Origin: Sulfobacillus sp.
Lineage (GTDB): Bacteria; Bacillota; Sulfobacillia; Sulfobacillales; Sulfobacillaceae
NCBI GenBank assembly: GCA_027309085.1
Contig: DAIDDL010000016.1
Span: 48,352 to 80,450 of the forward strand
Length of the DNA: 32,099 nt
Direction: 5' to 3'
The position numbers were made by a program, and so were the translations under genes. The notes under the pieces are model-generated. The model was not told the DNA's origin. It did not search any database and saw nothing but the letters and a program-made list of their open reading frames with translations. The first letter of the stretch is position 1, and each line of letters starts with the position of its first letter. This document shows, one piece after another, positions 1 to 25,754 of this stretch.

Positions 1-790
1 GCTTAATTTTGTTGTTAAATCCTTCGACCATCCCCTGGCTCCAGGGGCCCCGGATCCCGGCGCGCACGGCCGCCTCATCCTCCCGGATCCCTTCGGCAAA
101 GCTGACCAGTTCCGGAATGCCGCTGGTTTCGGCGGCATGCAGCCAGGCGGACAACGCCGTCTCCTGGTGGTGCATGACCATCGTGCGAAACTGATGGACC
201 AGGGTATAGGCGTGACGGTGGACGGGGTGTTTCAAGACCTGCGTCAGGGAGGGCACAGCATAGCGGGGCAAGTAGGGCCAGCGGGCTAAAAACCAATGAG
301 CCAACTTATGCGTAGTCGGGCGTGCCTGTTTCCGGCCGGGTGCGCCCGACCGATGCCGTGCCATCCAGCGGCCCAAGGTGGACCGCCCCCCGGTAAACCC
401 CGCGTTTTTTAAGGCCTCCCACAGGACGGCGCGTCGGTGCTGACCGTTTTCCCATAGGCGCTGCAATAAAGGCTCAAAGGGGTCTAATAGATGGTGATAC
501 GGGTCACGCTGAGGGTGAGCGTCGGGCGGTGGAGCGAGTAAATCTTGACGCACGGTTTTCCGATCGCAGCTTAACTCCCGGGCAATCTGGGAAATTTTCC
601 ACCCGGCCTCGGCGAGTCGATGCACTGCGGCATAGCGGATTTGGCGAGGGGTCAGAGCCGGCGTGTCCGGGGCGGCGGGTTCGTCTTCTGGCGGTAAATT
701 CGGGGGAGGAGCCTCCGCGTCGCCGTCCGGCGACGGCCTTTTCGCAAAAGGGGACAGCCGTCGCAAAAAATGCTCGATACTCTCTGCCCC
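1..790 (-). pseudogene. ISL3-family transposase, C-terminal half (cut by IS110, runs off left edge)
   Basis: Reading the minus strand from about 790 down to the edge gives one open frame of about 260 codons with no intact start. It begins with an acidic/proline linker, then a helix-turn-helix (RYAAVHRLAEAG followed by ISQIARELSCDRKTVRQDL), then the distal ISL3 signature ending PWSQGMVEGFNNKIK at the edge. This is the usual C-terminal layout of long ISL3 transposases. The matching N-terminal half lies at 2420-3056, and the two halves join in frame if the intervening IS110 element is removed (KNL before the junction, ESIEHFL after it). The gene is therefore insertionally inactivated. The N-terminal half also has its own lesion, so the copy may have been dead before the insertion. 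No stop is seen because the window ends first. Confidence 0.85.
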
Positions 791-882
791 GAAAATCCCC
801 CATCGCAAACGGAACACGACGACTTACACCCCCCCAGAACACGCCAACGGCGGGTGGGCGGCTGTCTCCTGGAGACCCGCGG

Positions 883-2130
883 TTACCCGGTAGCCGGCAA
901 GGAATCCGCGGGTTCGACGGTCACCCGAAAGCCTAACTTCTCCAGGCGGCGCACCGCCCGGTGCACGATCTGGCTCCGGTCCCGTGCGTCATGGTACGTC
1001 GGCCCCAAATCCTGATAGGGCTGGCCGTCGGTGAGGACGTGGACGACAATCACCAGCAAGCGATGGGCTAAGGCCACGATGGCCTTCTTCAGGGGCATGC
1101 GGCGGACCCAACGGCGATACAGCGCCCCCAGGAAGGTGTTCTTGGTGTGGCTGGCGGCCCATGCGGCCAGGGTCAAGGCTTGGCGCAGAGACTGATTGCC
1201 CCGGCGGGTGCCCGCCCGCTGGCGCTTCCCGGCACTTTCGTGTTGGCCGGGAGCCAACCCGGCCCAAGCGGCCGCGTGATCGGCATCGGGAAAGCGGGTC
1301 ATGTCGGTGCCCAGTTCGGCCACGATGACCTCCGCCGTCCGCCGGCTAATGCCCGGAATCGTGCAAAGGAGGGAAATCGTGGCCTCCTGAGGGTCCACGC
1401 GGCGCACAATCTCCGCGTCGAGAGACGCGATCCGCGTGGTCAGCTCATCAATGTGTCCCAGTAGTTGCTCGAGCAGAAACCGCTGATGGGCGCCCATCAG
1501 GCCTTGCAAGGCAGGCACGAGGGCGTCATATTTCGCCCGGAGGCGGCCGACCGCGAGGTCGGCGAGGACCGCCGGATCGGTTTCTCCCGCGACCAAGCGA
1601 TCCAACATGGCGCGCCCCGACACCCCGAGCACGTCGGTCGCGACCGACGCGAGTTTGATGTTGGCGCCTTCCAGCACCTTTTGCACCCGATTGATGTCCC
1701 GGGCGCGCTCCGCGAGCCACTGGGTCCGCTGGCGCGTGAGTTCCCGAAGTTCCCGTTGGGGCTTGTCGGGGATGAAGCTAGGCGTCAACAACCCATGCCG
1801 CAAGAGGTCGGCAATCCAGGTGGCATCTTTCACATCGGTCTTGCGTCCGGGCACATTCTTCATATGGGCTGGATTGACCACCCAGGTCGTAAAGCTCGCT
1901 TCCAAGAGGTTATAGACGGGCTTCCAGTAGGAGCCGGTCGCTTCCATGGCCACGTGGGTCACGTGCTCCGCCTGCAACCAGGTTTGGAGGTCCAAGAGCT
2001 CCGGCGTGGTGGTGCCAAAGGTCCGGAGCGTAAACGTGGCGTGACCCCGGCCATCCGTGTGACACAGACAGGCCACCACACTCCGCTTGTGGACGTCGAG
2101 CCCCGTGCAATGGGCATATAAGACTTCCAT
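883..2130 (-). CDS. IS110-family transposase (DEDD recombinase)
   Basis: A 415-residue full-length serine/DEDD recombinase that moves the surrounding element. The N-terminal RuvC-like domain shows GLDVHKRS near residue 10, AMEATGSYWKP near 60 and GRKTDVKDATW near 95. A helical linker follows (QRELRELTRQRTQW, INRVQKVLEGANIKL). The C-terminal Tnp domain carries IPGISRRTAEVIVAELGTDM near 250 and GLAPGQHESAGKR, whose Ser is the expected catalytic nucleophile in this family. ATG at 2130 is the natural start, just before the GLDVHK motif. The frame is intact, so the copy may be active. It is a close relative of the broken copy at 24297-25495. Confidence 0.95.
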   Translation of the reverse strand: MEVLYAHCTGLDVHKRSVVACLCHTDGRGHATFTLRTFGTTTPELLDLQTWLQAEHVTHVAMEATGSYWKPVYNLLEASFTTWVVNPAHMKNVPGRKTDVKDATWIADLLRHGLLTPSFIPDKPQRELRELTRQRTQWLAERARDINRVQKVLEGANIKLASVATDVLGVSGRAMLDRLVAGETDPAVLADLAVGRLRAKYDALVPALQGLMGAHQRFLLEQLLGHIDELTTRIASLDAEIVRRVDPQEATISLLCTIPGISRRTAEVIVAELGTDMTRFPDADHAAAWAGLAPGQHESAGKRQRAGTRRGNQSLRQALTLAAWAASHTKNTFLGALYRRWVRRMPLKKAIVALAHRLLVIVVHVLTDGQPYQDLGPTYHDARDRSQIVHRAVRRLEKLGFRVTVEPADSLPATG

Positions 2131-2419
2131 GATGAACAGTTCCTTTCCGCACCCGGTGCTCGGTCGCGGACGCGACCGGGTCCCAGCGGGCTCGGGGGAC
2201 GGGCCGGATCTCGAATCTGCCCCACGTGCTCACCCGAAGGCGGCGACACTCTCAGGTCCCCGAGGCACCCACCACAAACTCCTAGTCGCATGCGTAATGG
2301 CAGAGAGAATTCCGTGGGGGGACAGGGTGCTAATCCTAGCTTACGCCACGGCGAACGGGCAGGAAAGGCCCATTTTCATGCGCGCAGGTTGCCGGGCGTA
2401 GCGCGGCATGGGGAACTCC
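2131..2419 (-). ncRNA. Candidate bridge RNA in the IS110 leader
   Basis: This non-coding leader lies between the element end and the transposase start, where IS110 elements encode their bridge RNA. On the minus strand it contains a stem of the CCAC/GTGG type enclosing CTCTCTGCC (complement of 2299-2307) on one side and TAGG on the other. CTCTCTGCC is identical to the nine bases of target DNA at 780-788 beside the insertion, and TAGG could pair with the CCTA across the right junction. That is the arrangement expected of a target-binding loop. A second perfect hairpin (8-bp arms, 2161-2178) lies nearer the gene. The call rests on position, structure and this match; no covariance model was run. 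Confidence 0.45.
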
Positions 2420-3056
2420 TAAGTTTTTCAGGAGATGCCAACGGTCGGCCACTTGTTCCGCCTGGGGTGCTCCCTCGCGCGCCGCGTTCGCATACCCGAC
2501 GGCCCGATCGCGGCTCACCGTCTCGACAGACGGGTTCTCCCGCAACCACGCGGCTACGGTGTCGGCCGTGCGATCCGGCAAGATATCGATGACACGATGG
2601 CGCTCTAAATCCACCACCACAGTGGCATAGCGATGCCCTTTCGCTAACGCCCAGTCATCAATGCCCACAATCCGCGGGGGCGGAAACGTGGGGTCCGGCT
2701 GCGCTCGCAAAATGCGCACCACCGTAAAGCCACTGAGCGTGACCCCACAAACGCGCCGACCGCCGGCCATAGGCCGACACCCAAGGAGTTAACCGCATGC
2801 AGAAAATGCTCTGAGGACAGTCGGGATTGTCACACCACAATTTCGGCACCACCAATTCCACCGAGACCGCCGCATCACTCCATGGCAGGTCATGCGCCTT
2901 CCGCGAATACGTGCTGTGAAAACGGGACGAGACCTGGCCACAGTGAGGACACGGAGCGGATGCGGCCTCGATCCATAACGTCAGAAAAAACTGGTGCCCA
3001 TCATCCGTGATCGTGAGGTCTTGGGTCGGCACGGCGGGCAAAATTGAGAGCGACAT
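2420..3056 (-). pseudogene. ISL3-family transposase, N-terminal half (internal lesion, cut by IS110)
   Basis: The start ATG at 3056 has GAGGAG seven bases upstream. The first frame encodes the ISL3 zinc finger (CPHCGQVSSRFHSTYSRKAHDLPW, then CDNPDCPQSIFC). At about 2735-2775 the reading moves to another frame, and the linker between the zinc finger and the catalytic domain is shorter than in relatives, so a small deletion with frameshift is likely. The second frame gives the DDE domain ([50 protein letters not shown]) and ends at the IS110 junction. The C-terminal half continues at 790-1. The terminal repeat of the element is at 3126-3152. Confidence 0.85.
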
Positions 3057-24296: not shown

Positions 24297-25495
24297 TTAG
24301 ACGGCGGGAGCTATGGGTTCTAGGGTCACCTTGTATCCCAGCGCCGCTAAGCGCCGGGTTTCGCGGCGGATCACCGCCTGCTGATCGCGTTGATCAAAGT
24401 AGTTGCTCCCCAGGTCTTGGTAGACGACATCCGGGCCCTTCAAGATCGCGTAAGCGGCGATGAGAATGTGGCGGCCCGTGGCCATCGCCGCGCGTTTCTT
24501 GCCGCGGCGGCCGGCGAGATGGTGGAAGACAGCGCCGAGGTAGGTCCGCGTCTTGCCGGCGGCCTGCCCCGCCTCCACCAGCGCCGTCCGCAAAGCCTTG
24601 CTGCCCTTGCGGGTACGGGCGGATTGGGCGGATTGGGCGTGGCCGGCACTCTCGTGCTGGCCCGGGCTGAAGCCGGCCCACGAGACGAGTTGGGGCGCCG
24701 AGGGAAACCGCTGCATGTCCCCACTTCGGCTAAGAGGATCTCGGCCGTGCGGCGCCCGACTCCGGGAATCGTGGCCAACCGTGTGAGGGCATCATCAAAA
24801 TTGGCCAGACGGACGGTGATTTCATCACTGAGCGTGGCAATTTGCTGGTCGAGAAAGGTCATGTGTCCCAGCTGCACCTTGAGCATGAGCCGCTGGTGAG
24901 CCTGGACGATCCCGTGCAGCGCGGCCGTCAAGACTTGCGGATCGGATTCGCCCGCCGCCAAGGCGGCCAGAATCCGCTGGCCCGAGACGCCGAGCACATC
25001 ACTGATCACGCTGCTGAGTTTGATATTGGCGCCCTCCAACACTTTCTGGAGGCGGTTCGCCTCCTGGGCCCGGGTTTGGACCAAACTGGTCCGGTAGCGG
25101 ACCAGTTCCCGCAGTTCCCGTTGGGGTCGGGGCGGAATGTAGCTGCCCTTGAGCACGCCCACCCGGAGCAGCGAGGCAATCCACTGCGCATCCTGCACAT
25201 CGGTCTTGCGGCCGGGCATCCCCCGAATCTGCTGAGGATTGACCACCAGCACCGCGGAAAAGTCATACGACTCCAGCACATTCACCACCGGCTTCCAATA
25301 CACCCCGGTGGCTTCCATCGCCACATGCGTCACGCCACAGGCGATCAGCCAATCCGCCAGCGCCAGCAACTGATCCGTCAGCGTGCCAAACGACCGCGTC
25401 TCCGAGAGGGTAGGGGTAAACACGCTCGCCACAATGACCTTCTTATGAATATCCAGCCCCGTCCCATAGGACACGACCACCTTCAGCGTCTCCAT
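24297..25495 (-). pseudogene. IS110-family transposase, frameshifted
   Basis: From ATG 25495 (GAGGTGATC upstream) the frame gives GTGLDIHKKVIVASVF, AMEATGVYWKPVVNVLE, GRKTDVQDAQWIASLL and IPGVGRRTAEILLAEVGT. It is then thrown out of frame near 24715-24722. The next frame resumes MQRFPSAPQLVSWAGF, then GQHESAGHAQSAQ with the catalytic Ser, and runs to TAA at 24297. The intact relative at 883 reads ELGTDMTRF here, so about four bases (or one base plus a codon) are missing. No slippery run is seen at the site, so decay is more likely than programmed frameshifting. Apart from this one lesion it is full length, so the damage is probably recent. Confidence 0.88.
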
Positions 25496-25754
25496 GATGA
25501 TCACCTCACGAGAGTAATCCTCCGACAGCCACGGAATGTCTCAGAAATCTCCTCTACGTGCTAGCCTGGGGCGGGCGTCCGCCCGCCCCAGGCTGCAACA
25601 GTCAAGTGTGCTCGACGTGGCCGGAATTCGTCTCCTCTACGAGCTCGAAGCATCAGAGTGAACACGATCTCGGTCGGAGGTTACGACAATCATAGCGCGG
25701 TCCGCCCCCTTTTTCATCCGCGTGTGTACCCCGCGAGGGGCATGGGAGGTCTCC
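25496..25754 (-). ncRNA. Candidate bridge RNA region of the second IS110 copy
   Basis: Non-coding leader of about 260 bases in the position of a bridge RNA. It holds a perfect 14-bp hairpin with a GTCC loop (25563-25594, AGCCTGGGGCGGGC arm), matching in position the CGGTCGCG hairpin of copy one. A further segment reads CACTCTG...GAGGAG on the minus strand. GAGGAG could pair with CTCCTC and CACTC matches ACACTCCT at the left flank (24231-24238), but these overlap and are weak. Confidence 0.3.

Follow-up and report, generated by a model that had tools for sequence, protein, structure and literature searches.

We found that the leader of an IS110 element inserted in an ISL3 transposase gene of Sulfobacillus sp. 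very probably encodes a bridge RNA, predicted from comparison with related elements, whose first loop carries the two guides that directed the insertion into this site, with a polarity swapped relative to IS621. We put the probability of this reading at about 0.92. Sequence comparisons showed the exact ends of the element, its core, the predicted RNA structure, both predicted target guides, the 3' donor guide and the swapped polarity. We infer, by analogy, that the RNA would be expressed, bound and used, and that the reaction steps would be those of IS621. A suggestive single match has in this way become a tested guide-target code for an IS110 branch, one outside the systems assayed in the experimental reports compared here: IS621 and its relatives (PMC11208160, PMC11208158) and ISEc21 (PMC11187229). 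Its exact ends, core, register and guide lengths are now usable in tests of retargeting.

An IS110 element within an ISL3 transposase gene

The window, by which we mean the whole stretch of DNA analysed, is 32,099 nt long and comes from Sulfobacillus sp. (assembly GCA_027309085.1, contig DAIDDL010000016.1, positions 48,352-80,450 of the forward strand). Its left part contains the following features, in window coordinates:

2-783, minus strand: C-terminal part of the interrupted ISL3 transposase gene (PF01610, HTH_23; uninterrupted paralogue L291)
777-783, plus strand: RE-side target flank ATACTCT (window sequence and empty site)
784-785: core CT (AG on the transposase strand), downstream (RE) side (relatives' ends and empty site)
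786-2415, minus strand: IS110 element without the core dinucleotides (end motifs common to relatives; predicted empty site found intact)
883-2130, minus strand: IS110 recombinase, 415 aa (PF01548, E 1.4e-34; PF02371, E 9.6e-24; NCBIfam match)
2416-2417: core CT (AG on the transposase strand), upstream (LE) side (relatives' ends and empty site)
2418-2421, plus strand: LE-side target flank CCTA (window sequence and empty site)
2418-2770, minus strand: N-terminal part of the interrupted ISL3 transposase gene, continuing upstream (PF01610)
Predicted target sequence for the element's recombinase and RNA: CTTAGGAGAGAGTAT

The recombinase scored 296 bits against the NCBIfam model of the IS110 RNA-guided transposase (NF033542), and its D, E, D, D and S residues align with the catalytic residues of IS621. 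It has the DEDD RuvC-like domain and the C-terminal domain with a catalytic serine that characterize IS110 (PF01548, PF02371 and the IS621 alignment).

The ends of the element are fixed in its relatives: the upstream end reads core, six bases, then ATG, and the downstream end reads TTTTC, five bases, then core. These fixed ends place the element and its two CT cores at the coordinates listed above. The empty site predicted from this placement, CATCTCCTGAAAAACTTAGGAGAGAGTATCGAGCATTTTTTG, occurs with 0 mismatches over 42 bases in L291, an intact ISL3 paralogue of the same genome; the sequences flanking the site there are 92-96% identical to the two ISL3 halves of the window. This fixes the ends and the two-base core exactly and shows that nothing else of the target was duplicated. 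A dinucleotide core with no other duplication of the target, as seen in the empty site, is a mark of IS110 family bridge-RNA elements. The insertion site, CTTAGG-AG-AGAGTAT, lies within the ISL3 transposase gene. A three-base core, GAG, was rejected: with it the ISL3 gene would be out of frame, and the empty site has AG. A six-base pair, CCCCAT/ATGGGG, was spotted by eye; the subterminal inverted repeats of the IS1111 group are 7-17 bp long.

Two observations concern the surroundings of the element. The host ISL3 gene has a frame change near 2750 (2740-2770, minus strand), so this copy may have been defective even apart from the IS110 insertion. Just to the left of window position 1, beyond a run of 9 N, lies a partial IS110 copy that is 95% identical (L003:1490-1709), so the scaffold join at this point may be unreliable.

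A two-loop RNA upstream of the recombinase gene

All features of the leader lie on the minus strand and are listed in the order in which the RNA would be read:

2209-2330, minus strand: bridge RNA core region, target loop plus donor loop (covariance model R1, 94.6 bits; compensatory changes)
2314-2317, minus strand: target-loop stem, 5' half CCAC (sequence; helix 1 of the structure alignment)
2304-2312, minus strand: 5' target guide GAATTCT plus core-pairing CT, pairing with the RE-side flank 777-783 (family register, 90 elements)
2288-2301, minus strand: target-loop hairpin (compensatory pairs)
2279-2284, minus strand: 3' target guide TAGG plus core AG, matching the LE-side flank 2418-2421 in sequence (141 elements)
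2272-2275, minus strand: target-loop stem, 3' half GTGG (sequence; structure alignment)
2225-2248, minus strand: donor-loop hairpin (helix 4, 97.4% of cells paired)
2217-2223, minus strand: 3' donor guide GGGGC plus core AG, same sequence as the downstream end 790-784 (34 elements)

An alignment of 24 leaders revealed two loops with one hairpin each, marked by compensatory changes. With the target-loop stem included, 92.6% of cells are paired and 69 cells changed on both sides, compared with 19.6 in shuffles; the covariation signal was lost when the structure was slid along the alignment. The rows of the window are shifted by one column in helix 1. A long non-coding end that encodes a structured RNA with a pair of internal loops, as seen across these leaders, is typical of IS110 bridge-RNA elements. 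The loop closed by CCAC (2317-2314) and GTGG (2275-2272) had been pointed out in a preliminary description of this DNA, which read the leader as like an IS110 bridge RNA and this loop as its target loop, each side of it a guide. All of this is borne out by the covariation presented below, which extends over 90-141 related elements.

The window sequence belonged to the training set of R1, so its score of 94.6 bits follows by construction. The recombinase gene starts at 2130, which puts the R1 match (2330-2209) upstream of it, in the sense of IS621 and ISEc21, and not downstream as in the IS1111 group. Within the order, R1 had matches in 32 of 42 genomes; across the phylum, in 51 of 398 genomes sampled. 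It also matches elements of Alicyclobacillus, Paenibacillus and Actinobacteria. An Rfam search of 700-2600 returned no bridge-RNA family; its sub-threshold matches to sR-tMet and Actinomyces-1 look like chance and were set aside. Single-sequence folding did not recover the target loop, and a simple consensus promoter scan of the leader found nothing.

Target guides covary with the flanks of the insertion

We compared the first loop of related elements with the DNA on either side of each insertion. On the LE side (141 elements), the flank has the sequence of the loop's 3' segment, with z values of 14.8, 14.8, 11.3, 13.9 and 9.5 at positions -1 to -5 (124, 125, 111, 111 and 84 matches, with 44, 50, 62, 39 and 38 expected); the agreement is absent at -6. 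On the RE side (90 elements), the flank pairs with the 5' segment, with z values of 7.9, 4.2, 3.2 and 3.4 at +1 to +4 (59, 40, 40 and 35 Watson-Crick pairs, with 27, 24, 29 and 22 expected; sum z 8.0, a level reached in 0 of 2000 permutations). The signal of the 5' guide is weaker than that of the 3' guide. When each distinct guide contributed a single site and the window was excluded, z was 20 on the left and 7.4 on the right; the elements are relatives, and collapsing them to distinct guides lowers but does not abolish the effect of kinship, so these z values are not exact probabilities.

The register of the 5' guide was fixed by the CT nearest the hairpin, independently of the flank, and sliding it by 1-3 bases reduced z to 0.1-1.1. 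In the large set, the downstream end was likewise located with the donor guide (at most 1 mismatch) and not with the flank. Several flanks were taken from draft genomes, and L004, L005 and L008 were left out of the two-guide comparison for contig ends or a loop deletion. The 141 left and 90 right flanks, with the register control, point to two guides complementary to opposite target strands around the core.

Near-identical leaders show guide and flank differing together: both read TAGG in the window, CAAG in L003, and CACG in L016 and L022. At the pre-set register, the window matches at 4 of 4 positions on the left, with -5 mismatched; on the right, it forms Watson-Crick pairs at +1, +2, +3 and +5 and G-U pairs at +4 and +7; +6 is mismatched. 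There are exceptions among the relatives: L030 mismatches its left flank, and L017 does not fit on the right.

The register of the nine-base match

The preliminary description started from a nine-base match, CTCTCTGCC, between the minus strand at 2307-2299 and the plus strand at 780-788, and from a TAGG (2284-2281) opposite it that can pair with CCTA at the right junction (2418-2421). Both are present. The second is supported as a guide pairing by covariation among relatives, and the proposed comparison with other copies came out in favour of guiding: the flanks track the guides of this same loop in 141 (left) and 90 (right) relatives. The programmed target loop has therefore held up, with its TAGG/CCTA pairing, but the nine-base register was two bases off, for z falls to 0.5, from 7.2, when the 5' guide is slid by two bases to that register. 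The CT that pairs with the core usually stands one or two bases before the loop hairpin in relatives; in the window it is 2305-2304, two bases earlier than in the nine-base match. The nine genomic bases accordingly split into CTCT (780-783), which is target, CT (784-785), which is core, and GCC (786-788), which is the element's own end and in the leader forms part of the hairpin stem. Only CTCT is target sequence outside the element. Since the site contains a CTCTCT repeat, the two registers are inseparable from the window alone, and it is the relatives that decide. The first reading had also missed that the polarity of the guides is opposite to that of IS621.

The donor loop

The second loop carries a guide for the element itself. 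Its 3' segment repeats the last five bases of the downstream end: position by position, 33-34 of 34 elements agree. IS110 family bridge RNAs have two donor guides for the joined ends; a search for the 5' one here found none.

A proposed mechanism and its alternatives

In the mechanism we favour, the excised circle (RE-AG-LE) would make the bridge RNA. Its 5' guide, GAATTCT with core CT, would pair with the transposase strand in the flank that today adjoins RE, and its 3' guide, TAGG with core AG, with the other strand in the flank that adjoins LE. In complex with the recombinase, the RNA would thus pair with the two strands of the ISL3 site on either side of the core, and the circle would be joined to CTTAGG-AG-AGAGTAT by recombination at the two-base core, the sole shared sequence.

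The most serious alternative, though an improbable one, is that the CTCTCTGCC match is a coincidence of a CT repeat and that only the 3' guide TAGG selects the target, leaving the RE-side flank unspecified. The preliminary description itself had cautioned that nine bases can match by chance, and rightly: among 4,000 first-order Markov shuffles of the leader, 1.9% had a match of at least nine bases to either junction on either strand, so the match by itself (P 0.019) is suggestive and not strong. Its original register (shift +2, z 0.5) is without family support, and eight identical copies in one genome (G510), which have GAGG or CAGG beside AG on the left, have almost nothing in common on the right. 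With 28-29 elements there was no clear right-flank signal, and one-sided guiding was suggested; it was overturned by the set enlarged with the covariance model, in which 90 elements pair on the right at the family register. The window itself has its four Watson-Crick pairs in that register.

Two further readings seem to us very unlikely. The 3' guide has the letters and direction of the LE-side flank, and one might hence suspect that the likeness between flank and leader arose from duplicated or captured flanking DNA and not from RNA guiding. However, the empty site has the two-base core alone in common, the agreement ends after five positions and sits within loops set by conserved stems, and the right side is complementary and antiparallel. 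It is just as implausible that the element uses the arrangement of IS621, with the 5' guide for the LE-side and the 3' guide for the RE-side flank, and that the observed pattern is secondary. The 3' guide did give z 2.9 against the RE-side flank, but the 5' guide gave only 0.4 against the LE-side flank, compared with 20 and 7.4 for the swapped arrangement, and IS621 itself clearly displays the other order.

Related copies

The window holds a second bridge-RNA match (96 bits; 25541-25683, minus strand) in a broken IS110 element with recombinase remnants at about 24692-25483; its 3' guide, AGAGG-AG, and left flank, AATGG-AG, agree at the last two positions only. In other relatives (L048, L054, L055, L094-L097, L104, L171-L178 and others), the 3' guide AAAGG-AG or GAGG-AG is a Shine-Dalgarno sequence, and the downstream end of the element in these lineages also terminates in AGG-AG, so that the gene behind the element could regain a ribosome-binding site through the insertion. 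An ATG lies within 14 bases of the core at 8 of 21 sites with such guides, versus 8 of 69 others. A remnant of about 200 bases (L005:1500-1708, G000:C92) has an upstream end and a downstream-type end and lacks recombinase and target loop; it is perhaps a miniature derivative. A cyanobacterial copy (L024:1300-1330) lies directly behind the downstream end of another copy. Its target guide, AGGGC-AA, equals its own end sequence, and it would therefore be able to target itself and form tandems.

Comparison with known systems

We used two E. coli copies of IS621 as a control of orientation. Their LE-side flank (ATCAGGC-CT in L112) corresponds to the 5' guide, ATCGGGCCT, and their RE-side flank to the 3' guide, GCGTAG, in agreement with the published arrangement (PMC11208160, PMC11208158). 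The window's element resembles IS621 in its recombinase family and aligned catalytic residues, the upstream location of the RNA, a pair of loops in which guides flank a hairpin, an NT core dinucleotide and the lack of further target duplication. It differs in that its 5' guide reads the RE-side flank, in its core (AG on the transposase strand, CT in IS621) and in its longer recombinase (415 aa, compared with 326 aa); the RNA of IS621 was not detected by R1.

Siddiquee et al. (PMC11187229) reported that guide order is reversed between IS1111 elements, with the RNA downstream, and the IS110-type ISEc21, with the RNA upstream. If the top strand of that study is the transposase strand, as our comparison assumes, the window's family has the order of IS1111-type seekRNA elements (ISEc11, ISKpn4; PMC11187229): the complement of the top strand lies 5' of that of the bottom strand. 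Unlike in those elements, its RNA lies upstream of the transposase gene. ISEc21 (PMC11187229) also has its RNA upstream, and it too enters a transposase gene belonging to a different IS family and leaves the target unduplicated, but its guide order, reported as the reverse of IS1111, is opposite to that of the window's element. ISArsp3, one of the long-recombinase IS110 elements of Actinobacteria and Bacillota, is matched by R1 (35 bits) and has the same polarity: its left flank AAGTG-AG equals its 3' guide AAGTG-AG, its right flank AG-AGGGG pairs with its 5' guide TCTCT-CT (two G-U), and its RE end ATGTC-AG equals its 3' donor guide. Its recombinase differs, with 44.6% identity over 98% of the query.

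Judged by its predicted guides, the window's family combines the guide order of IS1111 with the RNA location of IS110. The text of the literature searched contained no description of IS1111 guide order with an upstream RNA; the predicted pairings in the published figures of ISAar29, ISPpu10 and ISHne5 may already show the swapped polarity. We consider it likely that a widespread IS110 branch, in Bacillota, Cyanobacteria and Actinobacteria, has an upstream bridge RNA as in IS621 with an IS1111-like polarity. If so, guide polarity and RNA location are separable, and the recombinase would work whichever side of the donor core the RNA gene is on. These comparisons suggest that the two features taken to tell IS110 from IS1111, RNA position and guide order, can be uncoupled, which bears on the IS110/IS1111 split and on which relatives might be programmable recombinases.
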